From Streptomyces sp. V1I1 (GTDB lineage Bacteria > Actinomycetota > Actinomycetes > Streptomycetales > Streptomycetaceae): DNA of 64,000 nt. Position 1 is the first letter of the stretch; the number at the start of each line of letters is the position of its first letter. Below, piece after piece: positions 4,311 to 28,163 of the stretch. The DNA is taken from NCBI RefSeq assembly GCF_030817355.1, contig NZ_JAUSZH010000001.1:4311001-4375000 (forward strand). Direction: 5' to 3'. Under the pieces are notes generated by a model, which did not search any database, had not been told where the DNA came from, and worked only from the letters and a program-made list of their open reading frames with translations. A program made the translations under genes and the position numbers.

Positions 4311-4661
4311 GTGCTGGAGATGACGCGCGAGGAGTTCGAGGAACTGGTCGCCGAAGCGCTGGACAGGATCCCGCCGGAGCTGACGCGGCTGATGGACAAC
4401 GTCGCGGTGTTCGTCGAGGACGAGCCCACCGCCGACGACCCCGAGCTGCTCGGGCTCTACGAGGGGACTCCGCTCACCGACCGAGGCGAGTGGTACGCGG
4501 GCGTGCTGCCGGACCGGATCACCATCTACCGCGGGCCGACGCTGCGGATGTGCGAGACCCGCGAGGACGTGGTCGCGGAGACCGAGATCACCGTGGTGCA
4601 CGAGATCGCCCATCACTTCGGGATCGACGACGAGCGGCTGCACGCGCTGGGATACGGGTGA
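4311..4661 (+). CDS. Zincin-like metallopeptidase family protein
   Basis: A small (116 aa) protein of the PF06262-type zincin family. The C-terminus holds the zinc-binding signature HEIAHHFGIDDERL (HExxHxxG with downstream Asp/Glu), as expected for that family. The start is taken at GTG 4311, giving VLEMTREEFEEL as in relatives; ATG 4320 is an alternative. No signal peptide or membrane segment is seen. The stop overlaps the GTG start of the following crcB gene (GTGA), so the three genes 4311-5505 are probably co-transcribed. Natural substrates of this family are poorly known. Confidence 0.8.
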   Translation: MLEMTREEFEELVAEALDRIPPELTRLMDNVAVFVEDEPTADDPELLGLYEGTPLTDRGEWYAGVLPDRITIYRGPTLRMCETREDVVAETEITVVHEIAHHFGIDDERLHALGYG

Positions 4662-5146
4662 CAAGTCCGGGCCCGCCGCCGGAGGCGATCGATCCGGATG
4701 TCGATCTGCATGTGCCCGCGCAGCGCGCCGAGACCGCGGGCAGCCACAAGTGGCCGGTGCTCGCGGCGATCTCGACGGGCGGAGCGGTGGGGGCGACGGC
4801 CCGGTACGCCGCCTTGGTGCTGTGGCCCGCGGCGCCGGGCGCGTTCCCGTGGGCGACCTTCTGGGTCAATGTGCTGGGCTGCGCGCTGATCGGGGTGCTG
4901 ATGGTGCTGGTCAGCGAGGGCGGCCGGAGCGCGCATCCGCTGGTGCGGCCGTTCCTGGGAGTCGGGGTGCTCGGCGGGTTCACGACCTTCTCGACGTACG
5001 CGCTCGACTTCTCCGAGCTCCTCGAGCGTGAGGAGGCGGACACCGCGATGGTCTACGCGGCCGGGACCGTCGCGGGCGCGATGGCCGCGGTGTGGCTGGC
5101 CGCCTCGGTGACCAGGACGGTCCTGACCAGAGGGGCCGCTAGGTGA
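4658..5146 (+). CDS. crcB: Fluoride channel CrcB/FluC, first subunit
   Basis: A 162-residue membrane protein with four hydrophobic segments. It carries the family signature GGFTTFSTYALD, the polar track that lines the fluoride pore, plus the conserved Asn in FWVNVLGC. An extended hydrophilic N-terminus of about 35 residues precedes the first helix. FluC proteins export fluoride as dual-topology dimers; paired genes such as this one and the next often form heterodimers of opposite orientation (family knowledge). The start GTG 4658 overlaps the upstream stop and the gene overlaps the next start by four bases. Confidence 0.9.
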   Translation: MTSPGPPPEAIDPDVDLHVPAQRAETAGSHKWPVLAAISTGGAVGATARYAALVLWPAAPGAFPWATFWVNVLGCALIGVLMVLVSEGGRSAHPLVRPFLGVGVLGGFTTFSTYALDFSELLEREEADTAMVYAAGTVAGAMAAVWLAASVTRTVLTRGAAR

Positions 5147-5505
5147 ACTGGCTGCTGGTGGTGGTGGGCGCGGCGGTCGGCGCGCCCCTGCGGTATCTGA
5201 CGGACCGTGCGGTGCAGGCGCGCCACGACTCGGTGTTCCCGTGGGGGACCTTCGTCGTCAACGCGGCCGGGAGTCTGGTGCTGGGCGCGCTCTCGGGGGC
5301 GGCGGTGACCTCGGGGACGTACGCCCTCCTCGGTACGGGTCTGTGCGGGGCGCTCACCACGTACTCGACGTTTTCGTACGAGACGCTGCGGCTGGCCGAG
5401 CGCGGGTGGATATTCCTGGCGGCGGCAAATGTGGGCGCGTCGCTGCTGGTGGGGCTCGGATCGGTGTTCCTGGGCGCGGAGTTGGCGCGCGGGCTCGTGG
5501 CGTAG
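5143..5505 (+). CDS. crcB: Fluoride channel CrcB/FluC, second subunit
   Basis: A 120-residue four-helix membrane protein. It has the conserved FVVNAAGSLVLG segment (pore Asn) and GALTTYSTFSYET (the variant of GGxTTFSTF). The GTG start overlaps the TGA stop of the first crcB (GTGA), a sign of translational coupling. Its N-terminus is short compared with its partner. Together the pair should form the fluoride efflux channel. No fluoride riboswitch was recognised upstream. Confidence 0.9.
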   Translation: MNWLLVVVGAAVGAPLRYLTDRAVQARHDSVFPWGTFVVNAAGSLVLGALSGAAVTSGTYALLGTGLCGALTTYSTFSYETLRLAERGWIFLAAANVGASLLVGLGSVFLGAELARGLVA

Positions 5506-17889: not shown

Positions 17890-19344
17890 TCATGCGTAGA
17901 TCTTGGGTCGAACCCCGGAGGGGTAGGGGTGTTTCCGGTCCTCCAGTGCCGCCACCGCTGCGTGATACCCGCACATTCCGTGGACTGAGGGGCCGGGCGG
18001 GGTAGCCGACGAACACAGCCAGGTACCAGGAAGGGGTGTCCGGTAGGGATTCCACCGGGCCACGGGGCGGGCCAGTGTTTGCCACAGGCTCATCGCACCG
18101 GAGCCTATGTCGCCGCCCACGTAGTTCGTGTTGTACTCACCGAGTTGGGCCGCCGACAGTCCGCGTTCGGCGACCACGGAGTCGGTGAAGCCCGGTGCGT
18201 GGGCCTCGATGGCGGCACGAATCATCGGCAGGTGATTGCGGGTGTCGCCGTTCGGCACATGCGCGTAGGCCCACACCGGCCTCTTCCCTCGGACGGCCCG
18301 TGCCGGGTCCGCGGCAGCCGGATCGACCAGGATGATGTAGGGGTGCGCCGCCTTGAGGCCCTTGGCGGTCACTGTCTCCGCACGGGCCAGTTCCGCCGCT
18401 GTGCCGTGCGCGCCGGCCAGGTGGACGGTGGCGGCCCTGGAGAGCCGGTGATCGGTCCATGGGATCGTCCCGTCGATGAGGAAGTCCGCCTTCGCGGCCC
18501 CCGGGCCGTACCGGTACCGGGACAGCCGGCGGAGGTAGCCGCGGGGCAGGGGCGCGATGCGGGCCAGCTCGCGGGGCGAGATGTCCAGCATGGTGATGCT
18601 CCGGCCGGCTGGAAGGTCCCGCAGGCTGTTCACTCTGGCGCCGGTGTGGATCCGGCCGCCGAGCTTCTCTATCTGTGCGGCCATGACAGTGGCGATGGAT
18701 CCGGAGCCACCTTGCGCTACGGGCCAGCCCGTGGTGTGGGCCAGGTGTCCGAGTAGCAGCGCGACCGCGGATGACGTCGGTGAGGGGAGCCTGCCGATGC
18801 CATGGGCGGCCACGCCCGCGAGCAGGGCTCGTGCTGTCTCGGTGCGCAGACTGCCGCCCAGGCGGAGGGAGTGAGCAGGCAGACGGGGCGCGAGCACTGT
18901 CAGAGCCCGCAACGGAGGAACCGTTCGCTGCGTGGACAACATCAGGTCCACCACGGCCGAGGAATGCTCCATCAACGGGAGCATGAGACGTCGCCAGCGT
19001 GGCCCGTCGTCTCCCAGCTCGGCGCAGGTGGCGTCGAGGTCACGCCAGGCGACGACCGCCGGCCTGCCCTTGAGGGGGTGGGCGTAGGCGGCGGGCGAGT
19101 GCATGAGGCGGACTCCGTGCTCCTCCAGATCGAGCGACCTCATGAAGGGGGATACCGGAGCCATGGGATGCACCGCCGCGCAGATGTCGTGCACCACCTC
19201 CGAATCGAAGAGCGGCTCCGTGCGCAGGCCGCCGCCGATGCGGTCATGCGCTTCGAACACCTCGACCCCGAGACCTGCCCGGGCGAGGGTGAGTGCGGCA
19301 GCGAGGCCGTTCGGCCCGGAGCCGACGACAACGGCATCCGTCAT
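17890..19344 (-). CDS. FAD-dependent oxidoreductase (phytoene dehydrogenase-like)
   Basis: A 484-residue flavoprotein of the COG1233/CrtI-like family. The N-terminus has the dinucleotide-binding motif VVVGSGPNGLAAALTLARAG followed by VEVFEAHDRIGGGLRT. The C-terminus has CSSATPPGPSVHGMCGYHAA, the usual FAD-contact loop. The ATG start is at 19344. Such proteins oxidise lipids, isoprenoids or small hydrophobic compounds; the substrate is unknown. It is the last gene of a minus-strand run that begins at 22947, with 75 bases to the small membrane gene upstream, so it may be co-expressed with the peptide genes. Confidence 0.85.
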   Translation of the reverse strand: MTDAVVVGSGPNGLAAALTLARAGLGVEVFEAHDRIGGGLRTEPLFDSEVVHDICAAVHPMAPVSPFMRSLDLEEHGVRLMHSPAAYAHPLKGRPAVVAWRDLDATCAELGDDGPRWRRLMLPLMEHSSAVVDLMLSTQRTVPPLRALTVLAPRLPAHSLRLGGSLRTETARALLAGVAAHGIGRLPSPTSSAVALLLGHLAHTTGWPVAQGGSGSIATVMAAQIEKLGGRIHTGARVNSLRDLPAGRSITMLDISPRELARIAPLPRGYLRRLSRYRYGPGAAKADFLIDGTIPWTDHRLSRAATVHLAGAHGTAAELARAETVTAKGLKAAHPYIILVDPAAADPARAVRGKRPVWAYAHVPNGDTRNHLPMIRAAIEAHAPGFTDSVVAERGLSAAQLGEYNTNYVGGDIGSGAMSLWQTLARPVARWNPYRTPLPGTWLCSSATPPGPSVHGMCGYHAAVAALEDRKHPYPSGVRPKIYA

Positions 19345-19419: not shown

Positions 19420-19626
19420 TCAATGGACGGCCAGCCATCCGATACCGGCGGCGCAGGTGACCCCCGCGACGGCGAGGGCGGCCACCCTGTGGCGGCGCAA
19501 CGCGTATCCGAGCAGCAGGGCGGTGAGCAGCACGGCGATCGTGCCGAACGCGCCTCGCAACGGCCCATGGCTGTAGCCGAATTCACCGCAGTGGCGTATG
19601 AACCAAGCAAACCAGGCAAGCCTCAT
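19420..19626 (-). CDS. Small membrane protein (68 aa), possible immunity protein
   Basis: The 68-residue protein has a short aromatic N-terminus (MRLAWFAWFIRH) and two hydrophobic stretches, AFGTIAVLLTALLLGYAL and VAALAVAGVTCAAGIGWLAV, joined by RRHR. It looks like a two-helix hairpin membrane protein. No family was recognised. Its place inside the peptide/HTTM operon makes a role in self-protection or export possible; this is inference from position only. Confidence 0.6.
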   Translation of the reverse strand: MRLAWFAWFIRHCGEFGYSHGPLRGAFGTIAVLLTALLLGYALRRHRVAALAVAGVTCAAGIGWLAVH

Positions 19627-19680
19627 GACGCTCTCTCCGTGATTACTGAGGGCCGGAGCAGTGGCGGAACCATCTGATCC

Positions 19681-20529
19681 TTACCTTCCACGCAGCGAGG
19701 GAGTCGCGGCGAGGGTCTTCACCGCGAGTCGGTCGGTGCGGGCCGGGGTGCCGAGGCGGTGGACGAGGATCCAGCGGCCGTCGTCGTGTGCTGCGGCCAC
19801 GACGGAAGAGCCGCGGGTGGCTCCGTTGTGCCACAAGGTCGACGAGCCCCGGCGCCAGCTGGGTGCCGGGGGGCCCAGCCTGCGGTCGACGAGCAAGCCG
19901 ACGAGGAGGTCGGCCAGGGTCCGGCAGGTGGACCACAGGCCGCCCGCTGGCAGGATCGGTCCGGTCAGAGTCCACAGGGGGCGTGGCCGGCCGAACAGGT
20001 TTCGCGGTATGAGGCGTCGGTCCTCCGGGGGGAGTGCCGTCATCGCGCCTGCTTCCAGCCCCAGGGGGAGGAGGACGTACTCGTCCACCAGTTGCTGGAA
20101 GGTGAGTCCCGTGGTGGTGGTGAGGGCATGCCCGAGAACCGCATAGCCCAAGTTCGAGTACTCCTCCTCGCCCAGTCGTCCACTCGCCAACTGGTCCAGG
20201 CGGCACAGTGATTCACGCAAGGCCGACTCCGTGAAGCCGGCGTACGGGTCGTCGGGAGGACTGGAGAGCCCGGAAGGCAGACGCGGTAGACCTGAGGTGT
20301 GCTCGGCGAGATGCCGGAGGGTGATGGCCGTCCCCTTGGGCACCTCGGTCAGGCATTCCTCCAGCGGTGTGTCGAGGCTGAGGTCTCTCTCCTTCGCCAG
20401 CCGGATCAGGACCGTTCCGGTGAAGACCTTGGTGAGAGAGCCGATCTCGACGAACCGGTCCGCATCGTGGCCATGGGTGAGATGGCCACGAATACCGGCG
20501 CCGCCGAGAAGGCAAGTCGGTGTCAGCAC
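19681..20529 (-). CDS. Beta-lactamase-family serine hydrolase
   Basis: A 282-residue protein of the class C beta-lactamase/penicillin-binding family. SLTK (IGSLTKVFTG) is the SxxK nucleophile motif, YSN is the YxN motif, and HNGATRG stands at the KTG position. It is shorter than usual (350-400 residues): the N-terminal strand region is brief and no signal peptide is seen. GTG 20529 begins 15 bases after the HTTM stop, so the two genes are in one transcript. In this setting the enzyme could act on the secreted peptide or on the cell wall; that is inference. Confidence 0.8.
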   Translation of the reverse strand: MLTPTCLLGGAGIRGHLTHGHDADRFVEIGSLTKVFTGTVLIRLAKERDLSLDTPLEECLTEVPKGTAITLRHLAEHTSGLPRLPSGLSSPPDDPYAGFTESALRESLCRLDQLASGRLGEEEYSNLGYAVLGHALTTTTGLTFQQLVDEYVLLPLGLEAGAMTALPPEDRRLIPRNLFGRPRPLWTLTGPILPAGGLWSTCRTLADLLVGLLVDRRLGPPAPSWRRGSSTLWHNGATRGSSVVAAAHDDGRWILVHRLGTPARTDRLAVKTLAATPSLRGR

Positions 20530-20544
20530 TTTCCATTGCTCCCG

Positions 20545-21531
20545 TCAGACGAGTTCAGCTTCGGGCACGGCCTCGTTTCGTCCTGCTGCCATCGCCGCCG
20601 CTCCGCCGGCAGGTTCCTGAGGCCGGTTACGGCGGGCACGGAGCCATGCGACCGCGCGGTCGAGAGCACCCGACAGGAAGACGAGATCGCAGGCGATCAT
20701 GGTCAGCGCGAAGCCTGTAAGCCCCATGAAGAACGCGATCGACACGTGGAAGCCGATGGACATGGCAGCCGCCCAGGGGCGCAATGCCGGGACGAGGACG
20801 CCCAGCGGGAAGTAGACCAGGAAGGCGACTGTCCCGTAGGTCCCCAGAACGACCAGGAAGTCGCTCTCGTACACCAGGTTCGACCAGCCGGGCAGTTCGA
20901 ACTCCGGCACCCGCATCACGTAGAAGAGGGCCGTGCCGTCCTGCCATTCCTCGCCCATGACTTTGTAGAGACCCGAGACGACGTAGACGAGACAGATCTG
21001 CGTCGCGACCATGAGGACGCCAAGGTTGTGGAACGGCACGGAAACCGCTCGCACATGCCCCGGCACCCGCCCGGCGAAGCGCTTGGCGAGACCGACGGGA
21101 AGGGCGAACCGGTCATAGCAATGCGTCAGGAGCAGGAACGGAAGGACGACGTAGGCAAGGTTGTCCCCACCGTCCAAGAGGGCGGGTTGCCGCTGATAGA
21201 GGGACCACAGCAGGACCCAGTGGAACGCAAGGCCCGGTCGACCTCCGATACCGAGCATGACGGCCAAGGCCGCGAACAACCCGACGTGGAAGACCACCTC
21301 GAACCAGACGGGGGACGCGGACAGCGCATAGAGGCTGAATCCCGTCAGCTGTTCCTTGAACTCGTCGTGAGGCAACACTCCGTCGGGACCGAACAGGTAG
21401 TTCCGCTCCCGGTACTGGCTCACGTAGTACATGAGGCCGACGAACCCCAGGAGCATGCGGGTTCCCGAGATCCCGGTGACGGCAACCGCATGCAGCGACC
21501 AGGCGTCCAGGCGGGCACCGAAGTTCTTCAT
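20545..21531 (-). CDS. HTTM-domain membrane protein (SdpB-like)
   Basis: A 328-residue polytopic membrane protein. It has segments typical of the HTTM (horizontally transferred transmembrane; vitamin K-dependent carboxylase-like) family: ISGTRMLLGFVGLMYYVSQY, the GPDGVLP motif, the histidine-containing VWFEVVFHVGLF, LLDGGDNLAYVVLPF, and GLYKVMGEEWQDGTALFY. SdpB, which helps mature the Bacillus SDP toxin, belongs to this family. The ATG at 21529-21531 overlaps the stop of the DUF5819 gene (ATGA), giving translational coupling. The start at 21531 is preferred over the longer upstream frame. It probably works with the DUF5819 protein on the neighbouring peptide. Confidence 0.85.
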   Translation of the reverse strand: MKNFGARLDAWSLHAVAVTGISGTRMLLGFVGLMYYVSQYRERNYLFGPDGVLPHDEFKEQLTGFSLYALSASPVWFEVVFHVGLFAALAVMLGIGGRPGLAFHWVLLWSLYQRQPALLDGGDNLAYVVLPFLLLTHCYDRFALPVGLAKRFAGRVPGHVRAVSVPFHNLGVLMVATQICLVYVVSGLYKVMGEEWQDGTALFYVMRVPEFELPGWSNLVYESDFLVVLGTYGTVAFLVYFPLGVLVPALRPWAAAMSIGFHVSIAFFMGLTGFALTMIACDLVFLSGALDRAVAWLRARRNRPQEPAGGAAAMAAGRNEAVPEAELV

Positions 21532-22169
21532 CGCAGATCCTTGGTGGGGGTCCAGGCGAAGTCCTTCACCAGAACCTTGCCTTCGGCTGAGGAGTCGTTC
21601 CGTTTGGACCAGGGCGGCAACTCGTGCACATACATGCGGACTTGCAGTTTCACTGCCTTTCCGTTGCACGCGGTCGGCATCTGGTCGTACGCGTAGCGGG
21701 AAAGGGACTTCACAGCCTCCGCCTCCGTGACCTTCTCGTAGGGCAGCGGGGGCAACATGGGTTTCTTGTCGTTGGTCTGCTTCTCCCTCAGCCTCCTGAG
21801 GATCTCCTCGCTGCTGGTGACGTTCTGGAGGCCGGCAGAGACGATGCGCACTTCACGCGACGGGAAGAGACGGGAACTCTGGGCCTTTTCAAGTCCGCGC
21901 GCCGAGACATCGAAGTATTCCGAGACCGATCCGTCCGCGCAGGCGGCCCTCGCCAGAATGCCGCGGTCGTCGGATACGGGCGTCGGAGCGAAGAGCTGCC
22001 AGTTTTGCGAGAAGTAGGGATCCAGATATTCCGCGACCCGGTCTCCGTATACGAGTTTCGCCGGGCTGAGCGGTGCCTGGGACAATGCGGCCATGGTCAT
22101 GTGCGCGCCCAGGAGGGCGCCGCCGATGAGCAGCGCCGCCCTCCTGGTTGTGCGGTACGTCTTCGTCAC
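21528..22169 (-). CDS. DUF5819 family protein (SdpA-like partner)
   Basis: A 213-residue protein with one N-terminal membrane anchor (RRAALLIGGALLGAHMTMAAL) and an extracytoplasmic domain. The hallmark segment is YFSQNWQLFAPTPVSDDRG, the QNWxLFAPxP signature of DUF5819 proteins, which parallels the W/FF motif of SdpA-type proteins. The start is GTG 22167-22169, only 7 bases after the peptide gene stop; its own stop overlaps the HTTM start. DUF5819 and HTTM genes are commonly paired in actinobacteria (recollection). A role in maturation or export of the small peptide is inferred. Confidence 0.8.
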   Translation of the reverse strand: MTKTYRTTRRAALLIGGALLGAHMTMAALSQAPLSPAKLVYGDRVAEYLDPYFSQNWQLFAPTPVSDDRGILARAACADGSVSEYFDVSARGLEKAQSSRLFPSREVRIVSAGLQNVTSSEEILRRLREKQTNDKKPMLPPLPYEKVTEAEAVKSLSRYAYDQMPTACNGKAVKLQVRMYVHELPPWSKRNDSSAEGKVLVKDFAWTPTKDLR

Positions 22170-22176
22170 GTGGTGA

Positions 22177-22527
22177 TTACCGGTCGAAGACCGTGTCGGC
22201 CGAGACACCCTGCGGCAGTTCGGCAGGGGCAGCGAAGAGGCTGCCGTGCGACAGCATGTTGTCGGCATTGCTCTTCGCCACCACGGACATACCCTTGCCG
22301 ACGGCCGTGGCCTTGTGCGCTCCCTTGGTGGCAGCCTTGCCGACGGACTTGGCGGCCTTTCCCAGCATGGAGCCGATGGCCTGCGGGGCAGGCTGCGACG
22401 ACTCGACGGCGGCGACAGGCGCGGCCGGCTGGGCCGGGGCGGCCTGAGCGCTGCCCTGAGCCGCGACGAAGAGAGCGACCCCGGCAGTGGCGACGCCGGC
22501 AGCGGTGGCAATCTTCTTGATATTCAT
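22177..22527 (-). CDS. Secreted Lys/Gly-rich peptide precursor (candidate antimicrobial peptide)
   Basis: A 116-residue precursor with ATG 22525-22527 and ribosome site GGAAGG. Residues 1-30 are a Sec signal peptide (MNIKKIATAAGVATAGVALF, cleavage near AQAA). An Ala/Pro spacer follows to about residue 50. Residues 51-86 form an unusual stretch free of acidic residues with Lys about every four positions (IGSMLGKAAKSVGKAATKGA, then HKATAVGKGMSVVAKS). This would be a cationic amphipathic helix, like magainin-type peptides. The tail (ADNMLSHGSLFAAPAELPQG and on) holds most of the acidic residues and may be removed. There are no cysteines in the mature part. It is the first gene of the DUF5819-HTTM operon. 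Confidence 0.75.
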   Translation of the reverse strand: MNIKKIATAAGVATAGVALFVAAQGSAQAAPAQPAAPVAAVESSQPAPQAIGSMLGKAAKSVGKAATKGAHKATAVGKGMSVVAKSNADNMLSHGSLFAAPAELPQGVSADTVFDR

Positions 22528-22651
22528 TGAAATTTCCTTCCCCGATTTGGACGATCCAGGTGTGGCCATGCTTCGACCACCCCAACAAGGCGTGCCGGGA
22601 TGGTGCGCAGCGGACAACACCCTTGAGCCTGCCGCTTTGACGCCGGTCTCT

Positions 22652-22688
22652 CCATTGCCTCTTGAGGCATTGCCTCAAGAGGCAATGG
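22652..22688 (-). terminator. Perfect 17-bp inverted repeat between luxR and the peptide gene
   Basis: Arms ccattgcctcttgaggc / gcctcaagaggcaatgg with a 3-base loop, overlapping the stop of the LuxR gene (22675-22677). It can act as a terminator for that gene or as an operator ahead of the peptide operon, whose start is 125 bases further on. Its AT content is high for this genome. Confidence 0.6.
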
Positions 22689-22947
22689 CGTCCTCGGTCA
22701 AAGTTTCCCGATAATGGAGCGCCACCAGACTCGCCTCGAATCTGGATCCGACACCCAGCTTGCGCACGATGCTGGTGATGTGGGCCCTGACGGTTCGTTC
22801 TGCGACTCCGAGCCGCCGAGCGAGAAGGCGATTCGACTCACCCTTGGCAAGGTTGCGCAGCACCTCGCGCTCCCGGCCGGTCAGCTTCGCCAGCCTCGCC
22901 GCATCCACGGAAACGGGAAACGCGCGGATCTCTGCACCCGTGGTCAT
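22675..22947 (-). CDS. Stand-alone LuxR-type HTH regulator
   Basis: A 90-residue protein that is essentially only the LuxR/NarL DNA-binding domain: LAKLTGREREVLRNLAKGES, NRLLARRLGVAERTVRAHIT and SIVRKLGVGSRFEASLVALH. No receiver or sensor domain precedes it. It lies directly upstream of the peptide operon on the same strand, separated by a perfect inverted repeat, and is the likely activator of that operon. The start at ATG 22947 leaves about 20 residues before the HTH. Confidence 0.8.
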   Translation of the reverse strand: MTTGAEIRAFPVSVDAARLAKLTGREREVLRNLAKGESNRLLARRLGVAERTVRAHITSIVRKLGVGSRFEASLVALHYRETLTEDAIAS

Positions 22948-23665
22948 CGTGATCTCTCCCCCTGACTACGTTCACCTGTTGGCCCCGGGCAGAGCGGCGC
23001 AACAGGGTCAGCGGGGTGGAGTTGTTCAAGAGGCAGTGGTCAGTTGCCTACACGTCAACCACCCGGCTGGACTGTACTGTTGGAGCTTACAGGGCGCTCC
23101 GAGGAGATGACCTTGGGCGAGCGAGGTCGCGGACGGTCCCTCGCTGTCCCCGTACTCGCCCAGGTGCTTGGCGCGTACCAACGACCCGCTGCTCGGCCGC
23201 CCTCCGGTAGAGCATGAGGGCCATGAGCGGCGTGAACGGCGCCCCTTCGAAGAAGTCGGATCCTGACCGGCCACACTGAGGAGATCGCCGAAGCCCTGCA
23301 ACAGCACGTCGACGCCACGAACTGGTAGCGCCCCTGGCGGCGGCTTGACCAGGCAGAAAGTACCCGCGCCGTGGTCTCAGTCTCGGTCTCGTTCACCAGC
23401 GTCCATGGGCGTTCGTCACACCCCCTCCCGTCTGCTCCGCCGCAGGTCAGAACACCCCCGCCCGCCCCCGAACGCCCAGACGAAGACTTGGAAAGCGTGT
23501 TGGGCCGCAACGGTCGTCGCGGAGCCCTGGATGCGTGAGCGATGCGTGAGCGGACGTACTGGGATGACGCCTCCAGATTTGGACTGGACGTCAAGCTCCA
23601 GCTCGCTGACCAGGCCGTTCTGGACGAGGGGGGTGCACGGCGGAAGCCCCGGCAGGATCCCGCCG
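22948..23665. other. No intact gene; junction region before the second att copy
   Basis: About 720 bases without a convincing gene. One readable plus-strand tail is RILTGHTEEIAEALQQHVDA TNW with a stop near 23328, which looks like the end of a lost regulatory or enzyme gene but was not identified. An integrase is usually expected beside such a site, but none could be read here. The region is probably made of remnants. Confidence 0.4.
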
Positions 23666-23731
23666 GGACTTTTAATCCGTTGGTTGTGGGTTCGAGTCCC
23701 ACACGGCCTACCACTCAGCCCCAGGTCAGAG
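23666..23731 (+). repeat. Attachment-site copy 2 (tRNA-Lys 3' end)
   Basis: 66 bases identical to 12911-12976, starting in the tRNA-Lys anticodon stem and including the encoded CCA. The 5' half of the tRNA is missing, so this copy is not a gene. The two copies are 10,755 bases apart and define one element; related genes beyond this copy suggest a second element in tandem. Confidence 0.9.
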
Positions 23732-25847: not shown

Positions 25848-28163
25848 CTACTCCTGGTCGGCGGTGCGGCGGCGCTTCCACCACACCAGGCCGCCGCCGA
25901 TGGCCGCGAGGGCTGCGGCGAGTCCGGCGATCAGTCCGACCGGCGTGCTGGAGCCGGTGTCGGCGAGGTCGCCTTCCGGGTCCTTCCCGCCCGTGCCGCC
26001 GCTGCTGCCGGTAGCCGGGGGCGTGGTGGGGTCGGTGGGCTTGTCCGTCGGCTCACCCGGCTTGGTCGGCGTCGGCGTGGGAGTCGGCGTCGGGTCGGGG
26101 GTGTCACCGCCGCCAGAGACGTCGGAGGAGACGGTGTTGCCGCCCAAGAGCAGAAGGTTCGCGTCGCCGTCCTTGGCGTTGTCCGTCAGCGTGCGCACCG
26201 ATGACTTCGTCTCGCGAGGGAGGTAGCGGTGCTCGGTGTCGAAGCGGAGCTTGGTCATGTTCCGCTTGGGCTGCTTGGAGAAGTCCACTCCACCCACGCT
26301 CATGGTGTAGGGGCCGCCGCCGGCGTCGTGCTCCCACTGCTGTTCGCCCTCACGCAGCGACTTCAGGTACGCCTGGAACACGCTCTCCCGCGTCCAGTCC
26401 TTGTTCTCGCCGCGCAGCGGCCACGAGGAGACGTCGTTGCTGTTGATGACCTTGTGGTAGTCGGTGGGGGTCTTGGCGTCCTGCTGGCGGATGAACTCCG
26501 CCGCTACACGGGCCGTGTAGGCGCGGCGCAGGTCGGCGTAGCGCGGGTCGTTGTTCACGCGCTTTTCGACCTCGGGCATGATCAGCCGGTTCATGCGGTC
26601 TTCGGTGGCCTTCTTCTCGGCCTCGTTGAACTCGCACAGGTACGGGTCGCCGGGCATGTTGTCGATCTTCAGGTACTGGGCCTTGACCTTCAGCGGCGTG
26701 TCCAGGATGTGGATGCCGCCGTTCTCCTCGCGGACGACCGCGGTGTCCGGCTCGATCCAGTTGCGGACCTGGAACCAGCAGGGGATGCCCTCAGCGTTGC
26801 GGGGCAGCGACTTCCAGTACTGGTCGGCCTCCGGGCGCTTCTTCGGGTTCATCGCGTCGGCGAAGTCCTTCTTCAGCTCCAGGTCGGCTTCCAGCAGGAT
26901 CCGTCCGGCGTCGGTCTTCCCGAACGCGCTGTCCATGATCTTGTCGGGCTGGTCCGGGTTGAGGTTGACCCAGAACTTCTCCGGGCTCAGGGCGAGCCAG
27001 GTGAAGAAAGCGTCGTTGATGAGCTGCGCCTTTTCCTTGCCTCCCCAGCCCGCGGTGTCCTCGGTGACTTCCTTGGCGGAGAAGCTGTAGTCGACGCCTT
27101 TGCCCTTGACCGGCTTGCCGATGTACCGCAGGTCCAGGGTGGTGAAGTCCACCCCGCCGGGCCCCTTGGGCTGGAGCCGGTTGGGGTCGGCTGCGTTCTT
27201 ACGGTCCAGGAACTCCTTCATGTCCTTCGGGTTCGGCCGCGACTCACGGATCAGATCCTGCGCGCCGCCGCCGGTCACCCCTTTGGATCCGGGGGGCTGC
27301 ATGGTGGTCGACTTGTCCCGCACGCCGCCGCCCGGGGCCAGCTCGACCTTGCGGGAGCGGTAGTTGTACTCGGTGACCTTGCCCGGAGCGTTCTTCTTCA
27401 GCTCGTTCAGGTGGTCCTTGGCGGACTTCTCCTGCGGCTCGGCGAAGATGTACTTCAGCGACTTGACCGGGGATTCCTTCTGCTTCGACCAGGCGATGTC
27501 GCCCGGCTTCTGCTTCGGCTCCGGATGCCCGTTGGACTTGATCTCCAGCGCCTGCCCGGTGCTCTTGTTCCACGCATCCGCCTGACGCCGGTGAGTCTTG
27601 CCGGTATCGGGGTCGGTGTAGTCGAACTCCTTCTGGCAGATCCAGTCGTCACCGACGAGACCGTGTTCCTTGATGATCTTCTTCTCGAACGCCTTGCCGC
27701 GCGGGTCGTTCCCGGCGTTCTTGATCAGGATGATGTCGCGCCAGTAGGTGAAGTCCCCGAACGCGTTCGGGTTCTTCTTGCTGGCCCGGATCCACTTCCA
27801 CCAGACTCGGTCGACCGGCCGGGACTTCGGAGGCTCCTTGGTCTCCTTCTCCAGGCGCTTGTAGTCCGCCTCGGACGGCCCCTGAAGACCGTCCCACTTC
27901 TTGCCCGGATTCTCGTACTCGTAGGTGTCCCACTGGGACTTCGCCCGTGACGCATCCCCGTCGGGCACCTCCACGATGGCAACGAGGTCTTCCGCGAGAT
28001 CGAAGTAGTCGCGGCAGAGCATGCCCGGGTTCGGCGGCTTCCCCGGTGCGGCATCCGCGCTGGAGGTCAGGCCCGGAAGGCCGGTGAACGCGAGGGTTGC
28101 CGCGGCGGCGACCGCGACAGCGGATGCCAGGCGTGCCCTCACGCGTGAACGTATGGTTTTCAA
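25848..28163 (-). CDS. Sortase-anchored surface protein with a restriction-endonuclease-like segment
   Basis: A 771-residue secreted protein starting at TTG 28161-28163. It has a signal peptide to about residue 39 (ending SSADA). Near residues 155-260, GKAFEKKIIKEHG, then RRQADAWNKSTGQALEIKSN and KYIFAEPQEKS fit the D...ExK core of PD-(D/E)xK nucleases, as in toxin REase domains. A long unassigned middle follows, then a Pro/Thr wall-spanning stretch. The end LADTGSSTPVGLIAG, hydrophobic helix and KRRR tail form a class E (LAxTG) sortase sorting signal. The protein should be fixed to the cell wall. Nuclease activity is inferred, not shown. Confidence 0.75.
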   Translation of the reverse strand: MKTIRSRVRARLASAVAVAAAATLAFTGLPGLTSSADAAPGKPPNPGMLCRDYFDLAEDLVAIVEVPDGDASRAKSQWDTYEYENPGKKWDGLQGPSEADYKRLEKETKEPPKSRPVDRVWWKWIRASKKNPNAFGDFTYWRDIILIKNAGNDPRGKAFEKKIIKEHGLVGDDWICQKEFDYTDPDTGKTHRRQADAWNKSTGQALEIKSNGHPEPKQKPGDIAWSKQKESPVKSLKYIFAEPQEKSAKDHLNELKKNAPGKVTEYNYRSRKVELAPGGGVRDKSTTMQPPGSKGVTGGGAQDLIRESRPNPKDMKEFLDRKNAADPNRLQPKGPGGVDFTTLDLRYIGKPVKGKGVDYSFSAKEVTEDTAGWGGKEKAQLINDAFFTWLALSPEKFWVNLNPDQPDKIMDSAFGKTDAGRILLEADLELKKDFADAMNPKKRPEADQYWKSLPRNAEGIPCWFQVRNWIEPDTAVVREENGGIHILDTPLKVKAQYLKIDNMPGDPYLCEFNEAEKKATEDRMNRLIMPEVEKRVNNDPRYADLRRAYTARVAAEFIRQQDAKTPTDYHKVINSNDVSSWPLRGENKDWTRESVFQAYLKSLREGEQQWEHDAGGGPYTMSVGGVDFSKQPKRNMTKLRFDTEHRYLPRETKSSVRTLTDNAKDGDANLLLLGGNTVSSDVSGGGDTPDPTPTPTPTPTKPGEPTDKPTDPTTPPATGSSGGTGGKDPEGDLADTGSSTPVGLIAGLAAALAAIGGGLVWWKRRRTADQE

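Follow-up and report, generated by a model that had tools for sequence, protein, structure and literature searches.

What does a run of six minus-strand genes in the genome of Streptomyces sp. V1I1 make, and do its members belong together? The genes lie at 19420-22947 of a 64,000-nucleotide stretch of DNA (the window; contig NZ_JAUSZH010000001.1, positions 4,311,001 to 4,375,000) and encode, in order, a LuxR-type regulator, a secreted precursor peptide of 116 amino acids, a DUF5819 protein, an HTTM membrane protein, a serine hydrolase, and a 68-amino-acid protein. A preliminary description had read them as a tightly packed operon resembling that of the Bacillus toxin SDP, and all six open reading frames (ORFs) were found where it had placed them. 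Tight packing held for the center of the cluster, where the precursor and DUF5819 genes are separated by 7 bases, the DUF5819 and HTTM genes overlap by 4 bases (ATGA), and the HTTM and hydrolase genes are 15 bases apart, but not for luxR, which lies 147 bases from the precursor gene. The hydrolase gene and the 68-amino-acid ORF are 54 bases apart, and 75 bases separate that ORF from a gene for a flavin adenine dinucleotide (FAD)-dependent oxidoreductase, omitted earlier, into which the operon very likely extends. We consider it probable, though well short of settled, that the locus is a maturation cassette for one small, probably antibacterial secreted peptide, built on an SDP-like plan and lying outside the curated SdpA, SdpB, and SdpC families.

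The main evidence comes from loci sorted by their HTTM proteins. Starts and gene calls were made with a simple codon-usage script and not with a published gene finder; labels beginning with L (loci) and G (genomes) are our own, and loci shorter than 5 kb, or with an HTTM core identical to that of a locus already counted, are left out of the locus counts. Tier 1 comprises the close HTTM relatives, 45 distinct Streptomyces loci after duplicate removal. Tier 2 (9 loci) includes two damaged tier-1 loci, one cut off (L067) and one with HTTM in two frames (L107), plus a Longimycelium locus (L068), and tier 3 (28 loci) includes the SdpB locus L102, without which it forms a set of 27. We found that DUF5819 precedes HTTM in 45/45 tier-1 loci, that the precursor precedes DUF5819 in 43/45, and that a PF00144 hydrolase follows HTTM in 44/45, with gene order and strand constant in every one of these cases. 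The precursor is absent from L042 and L045 and interrupted in L050 and L058. Tier 2 has the precursor in 7/9 loci and the hydrolase in 8/9, neither being found in locus searches of L068, and a hidden Markov model (HMM) search of tier 3 found neither in any of the 28 loci. Other members vary: the FAD enzyme scores above 400 bits in 23 tier-1 loci, a LuxR protein above 90 bits in 7, and the 68-amino-acid ORF occurs in 6, the window being counted in the last two. The genes are real, and together they form a conserved cassette; the earlier proposal that a small secreted precursor is tied to these membrane proteins is borne out for the HTTM/DUF5819 subfamily of the window.

A pattern-based scan of a species-genome collection with the HTTM alignment returned 39 loci, all from Streptomyces except one from Longimycelium, and in a sample of the phylum only 2 of 198 genomes, the window's own and one more Streptomyces, had an HTTM match at E ≤ 1e-45. 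Within Streptomyces, a match at E ≤ 1e-30 was present in 94 of 392 genomes; among these 94, 20 scored above 500 bits, 7 had matches of 260 to 295 bits, and the remainder fell below 170 bits. The open-licence literature, with subscription papers and preprints outside its scope, yielded no description of the cassette and no paper containing "DUF5819", both "SdpB" and "HTTM", or both "SdpB" and "vitamin K".

The precursor itself is a genuine selected gene with a constant tail. It had no Pfam match and nothing meaningful in NCBIfam (best E, 0.17), and at least 50 relatives were found in the protein database at E ≤ 0.01 when the best 8000 candidates were scored, most of those named being a "hypothetical protein" of Streptomyces. 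Against six close relatives, the ratio of nonsynonymous to synonymous substitution rates was 0.13-0.27, which marks it as a gene under selection. We aligned 37 precursors, chosen by HMM hit and start choice, with L042, L045, L050, L058, and some whole-genome loci omitted. In all of them a signal-like N terminus leads through a variable spacer into an Ala-rich middle, and the final three residues are FD[KRQ] (37/37); all five precursors extracted from tier 2 end in FD as well. Averaged over pairs, identity is highest at the very end (0.60 over the last six residues) and in the signal (0.54), intermediate in the core (0.43) and over the last 24 residues (0.39), and lowest in the spacer (0.29). 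The helical hydrophobic moment exceeded that of shuffled sequences in the middle region of the window precursor (z = 3.9) and, on average, across the family (mean z = 2.0; z > 1 in 28/37). One tier-1 locus, L047, carries tandem precursors (4571-4939 and 5049-5369) ahead of DUF5819. The acid-free, lysine-bearing segment at residues 51-86 that had drawn attention to the gene is there on counting, and its spacing of one lysine every four residues recurs in the window's nearest relatives, but this dense pattern is not general, because the net charge from signal to tail ranges from 0 to +10 across the 37 precursors. A "magainin-like" cationic core thus fails as a hallmark of the family, whose constant is the C-terminal FD[KRQ].

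DUF5819-HTTM pairs also occur widely in actinobacteria as two adjacent genes in the order seen in the window, and there they keep different company. An ice-binding-like secreted-protein gene accompanies the pair in 17 of the 27 tier-3 loci, one of them in the window's own genome (L020; G000:C1:3872000-3885000), as against 1 of 45 tier-1 loci (L051); the one such protein tested matched PF11999 at E = 4e-53, and that of L144 is annotated as ice-binding family. A phenylacetate (paa) catabolic gene stands beside the pair in 4/27 (L019, again from the window's own genome, and L025, L026, and L029), with no secreted partner noticed in L019, L025, and L026, and in L126 and L131 a different small protein lies in front of the pair. 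The preliminary description had held that its idea would fail if such pairs regularly lacked a small lysine-rich ORF; this is so in the distant subfamily (0/28), though 17/27 hold another secreted protein, and is not so in tier 1. The ice-binding-like protein is possibly another client, which raises the alternative that DUF5819-HTTM modifies exported or surface proteins in general and that its client here is no toxin but a small peptide associated with the wall or the spore. We regard this as rather unlikely for the window, whose subfamily is set apart by HTTM score (>400 versus <170 bits), by its own hydrolase, and by a variable amphipathic precursor, and whose cassettes also occur on plasmids.

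The regulator suggests a second alternative, in which the product is a signaling or developmental peptide and controls its own operon by way of the LuxR-type protein. In loci with a regulator, a repeat with a 15-bp period and variable copy number lies between luxR and the precursor (4.5 copies at L033:4781-4861; 6.7 copies at L034:4745-4846), and a related motif was found upstream of the precursor in 7/7 LuxR loci, in L039, L047, and L040, and in 0/24 other counted loci. Regulator and repeat array therefore co-occur, and the array looks like a putative iterated operator. The window has a short form, two exact copies of TGCCTCNNGAGGCA that are the only exact matches in the window; looser dyads (up to 2 mismatches) numbered 6 against a chance mean of 4.9, i.e., no excess. 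The array directly before the precursor speaks for this alternative, but the gene for the regulator, which does stand in front of the precursor as first described, belongs to 7/45 loci only; moreover, it encodes a helix-turn-helix (HTH) protein of 90 amino acids with no other recognized domain, and no receptor gene was recognized among the recurrent neighbors. We therefore judge a signaling role improbable.

The membrane pair links the cassette to SDP. According to the available part of PMC6818787, Bacillus subtilis makes the toxin SDP from sdpABC and a second product, YIT, from the paralogous yitPOM, each with its own immunity protein. SDP-like genes of Brevibacterium are handled as a group of ribosomally synthesized and post-translationally modified peptides (RiPPs) in the accessible text of PMC5719810, and the family is termed SdpAB exporters in the portion available of one survey (PMC3924187); the curated SdpB model, TIGR04033, bears the name "export_SdpB". 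As in the Bacillus systems, the window has a secreted precursor with a variable product region, an SdpA-like protein, and an HTTM protein detectably homologous to SdpB, and its order of precursor, A-like, and B-like genes is that of an SDP-type locus in another Streptomyces (L102). The proposed parallel between HTTM and SdpB stands: three HTTM relatives matched TIGR04033 with 62-88 bits, where the SdpB of L102 scored 264 bits, so that HTTM is SdpB-related and not an SdpB family member. For DUF5819 and SdpA, the profiles align along the N-terminal helix and in a region with the pattern QxW..F...P, with a probability of 44% for the close set and 64% for all tiers (score, 38.2; P = 6.6e-5). Shuffling the columns 30 times gave scores of at most 19.7, and unrelated controls scored 14-15. 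A predicted model of DUF5819 (predicted local distance difference test score, 80; predicted template modeling score, 0.59) gave no match in a PDB search; homology of DUF5819 to SdpA is likely, not proven. By its working plan, a conserved unit of secreted precursor with A-like and B-like membrane genes, the cassette is SDP-like.

The same order, TIGR04033 match, and SdpA-like profile might suggest a true SdpABC system, but we consider this very improbable, as the curated cut-offs already contradict it. The window HTTM protein scored 84.1 bits (E = 1.2e-23) against a TIGR04033 cut-off of 178.4; the DUF5819 protein had no NCBIfam match, the SdpA model (TIGR04034/PF17418) included, and matched only PF19136 in Pfam; and the precursor did not match the SdpC model (TIGR04032) in NCBIfam or anything in Pfam. 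Genuine systems are separately present in Streptomyces, with SdpA and SdpB of L102 over their NCBIfam cut-offs and its SdpC just below (92.5 versus 99.2 bits). The window further differs in the constant FD[KRQ] end of its precursor, in having DUF5819 in place of SdpA, and in its additional hydrolase and FAD enzyme, or DCC1-like enzyme in other strains. That an unrelated small secreted protein merely sits beside the membrane pair by chance, as the two tier-1 loci lacking the precursor might hint, is barely credible and largely excluded by an order and strand kept in 43/45 loci versus 0/28 distant pairs.

Several of these results also weigh against an antibacterial, SDP-like cassette. Besides the absent SdpA match and the low HTTM score, the DUF5819-SdpA probability is just 44-64%, and a distant HTTM protein of the ice-binding type also matched TIGR04033 (46 bits), so that the SdpB link applies to HTTM proteins generally. 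Some members have a precursor core with almost no net charge (+1 over the 50-residue core in L061 and L070), and the family is thus not uniformly of the antimicrobial-peptide type; between tiers, the precursors resemble each other weakly (15.4 versus a shuffled maximum of 11.4; probability, 1.2%). The hydrolase has no obvious signal peptide by eye, which puts in doubt where it could encounter the peptide. Among the recurrent neighbors, no immunity gene common to the family was seen, and these neighbors include unexplained extras, namely redox genes and a protein of about 163 amino acids in 14 tier-1 loci. The latter lies between HTTM and the hydrolase (proteins of this type include L017:3538-4074, L107:2505-3008, and L141:6341-6844), and the two examples searched had no Pfam match. 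An SdpI/YitQ-like immunity gene was likewise not noticed among the recurrent neighbors, where no search with an SdpI model was made. The 68-amino-acid ORF, earlier proposed for immunity, had no significant match; as it occurs in 6/45 loci, and additionally in the truncated L067, it is no general immunity gene.

Table 1. Features of the cassette, with positions in the window
Feature	Position	Strand	Evidence
LuxR/GerE-type HTH regulator, 90 amino acids	22675-22947	-	PF00196, E = 4e-18
Two exact TGCCTCNNGAGGCA dyads (22656-22669 and 22671-22684), candidate operator	22655-22690	.	Overlap the luxR 3' end; short form of the 15-bp array
Secreted precursor peptide, 116 amino acids	22177-22527	-	Relatives; family alignment; place upstream of DUF5819
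Predicted signal peptide, residues 1-30 (ending QGSAQAA)	22438-22527	-	By inspection; conserved signal-like end in family alignment
Amphipathic cationic core, residues 51-86	22270-22377	-	7 Lys, 0 Asp/Glu; helical moment
Conserved C-terminal TVFDR, residues 112-116	22180-22194	-	FD[KRQ] end in 37/37 aligned precursors
DUF5819 protein, N-terminal helix, SdpA-like	21528-22169	-	PF19136, E = 8e-24; SdpA profile comparison
HTTM membrane protein, SdpB-related, GGCX fold, invariant Lys190	20545-21531	-	PF05090, E = 1.5e-6; TIGR04033; GGCX structure and profile
PF00144 serine hydrolase, Ser-x-x-Lys and Tyr-Ser-Asn motifs kept	19681-20529	-	E = 2e-31
68-amino-acid protein, two hydrophobic stretches, local accessory	19420-19626	-	6/45 tier-1 loci
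FAD-dependent oxidoreductase, CrtO/phytoene-desaturase-like	17890-19344	-	Recurrent cassette member, 23/45 tier-1 loci

The window HTTM protein has the HTTM fold and resembles GGCX, the vitamin K-dependent gamma-glutamyl carboxylase, by structure search and by sequence profile, over only about the first 330 GGCX residues and at 12-17% identity; HTTM is thus related to both SdpB and GGCX. Its residue K190 is kept without exception in the 17 HTTM proteins compared, which cover all tiers and include an SdpB, and aligns with GGCX chain residue 187, which is Lys218. PDB titles name a K217A/K218A mutant of GGCX, and we take Lys218 to be its catalytic base.

For the maturation cassette that we favor, we infer the precursor's role as substrate, the order of steps, the roles of the helpers, the HTTM chemistry, and the antibacterial activity of the product. 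The precursor would be exported via its signal peptide and recognized by the membrane pair of DUF5819 and HTTM, probably through its FD[K/R] C-terminal tail. The pair would modify and/or cleave it to yield an amphipathic helix, rich in Ala and Lys, about 35-50 residues long, and most likely antibacterial, with the serine hydrolase helping to trim or release it. Redox power may come from the FAD oxidoreductase or, in other strains, from the DCC1-like enzyme, and the LuxR-type regulator, where present, may act at the repeat array before the precursor. A bolder proposal, which we hold only tentatively and think unlikely, is that the HTTM proteins of the cassette and SdpB are menaquinol-driven GGCX-type modifiers of a secreted precursor and not exporters. 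The modification would plausibly fall on the invariant acidic FD tail, by carboxylation or proton abstraction, and recycling of the quinone would fall to the FAD oxidoreductase or DCC1-like thiol oxidoreductase, a role that FSP1 and VKOR have for vitamin K in humans.

Hydrolase motifs are kept in the relatives checked (GSx[TSV]K in 36/38; Y[SAT]N in 37/38). The FAD gene shares the strand of HTTM in 16 of its 23 tier-1 loci and is downstream in 13. Of 36 chosen genomes, 19 have FAD-enzyme copies above 500 bits, 13 of them beside a tier-1 or tier-2 cassette and 6 elsewhere, so that the enzyme is not exclusive to the cassette. A gene for a DCC1-like thiol-disulfide oxidoreductase is found in 12/45 tier-1 loci (e.g., L044, L046, L061, and L070) and never together with the FAD gene (Fisher P = 2e-5). 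After collapsing HTTM proteins at 90-75% identity, the exclusion had P values of 0.002 to 0.03, and at 70%, 0.83; because just 3 switches between the FAD and DCC1 states suffice on the HTTM tree and independent pairs cannot reach significance, we treat it as a hint that the two are alternative redox partners and, to that extent, as support for quinone-driven modification.

Linaridin clusters offer another comparison, as there too a small precursor is accompanied by an HTTM protein, a hydrolase, and an oxidoreductase. In the available part of PMC9927463, HTTM proteins of linaridin clusters, exemplified for corynaridin by crdG beside the hydrolase crdE and the oxidoreductase crdC, are of unclear role, as is the hydrolase. 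That text gives linaridins a PxxxTP precursor cleavage motif, which was not seen by eye in the window precursor, a LinL protein in the clusters, and a hydrolase of the alpha/beta fold in place of PF00144. The precursors of the cassette also differ in their signal-like N termini. We read the cassette as a conserved combination of known components that is SDP-like but has another precursor and further enzymes.

Close relatives of the cassette are carried on three Streptomyces plasmids (L140, L141, and L142; 64-69% identity, tier 1). L140 and L141 have precursor, DUF5819, HTTM, DCC1, and hydrolase genes, and L142 is partial with adjoining IS3 elements. On a Virgibacillus plasmid (L143), tandem precursors (2003-2308 and 2556-2861), both ending in FDL, are followed by DUF5819 and an HTTM-DCC1 fusion, and a Macrococcus plasmid has the same layout with a precursor that does not end in FD. 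The strongest matches to the two flanks in the compared relatives were on different contigs or far apart (e.g., G005, G012, G023, and G024), weaker paralogous matches of both flanks lay about 17-35 kb apart at a different site, both in the window's own genome and in many relatives, and the flanks established no element boundary and no att sites. Although relatives of the cassette do occur on plasmids, the flanks gave no support to the earlier suggestion of a mobile island.

Two other features of the window lie beyond luxR. A minus-strand ORF at 23640-23715 starts with MVGRVGLEPTTNGLK, presumably the typical false translation of a transfer RNA (tRNA) 3' end; ARAGORN predicts no tRNA there, and the site is possibly a tRNA remnant or att-like site. 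At 25848-28163, a secreted-looking protein of 771 amino acids with a Pro/Thr-rich stretch and a hydrophobic segment at its end has a wall-anchored look.

Collectively, the cassette would be a second, richer version of SDP, in which a precursor with a constant tail is joined by helper enzymes that can be named and by an HTTM protein bearing the lysine of GGCX. Many genes listed as "hypothetical protein" (at least 50 precursor relatives) become candidates for peptide products, and the chemistry of the HTTM family becomes testable, a quinone-driven peptide modifier directly so. If that modifier were real, Streptomyces would have a bacterial vitamin K-type cycle serving peptide antibiotic production.

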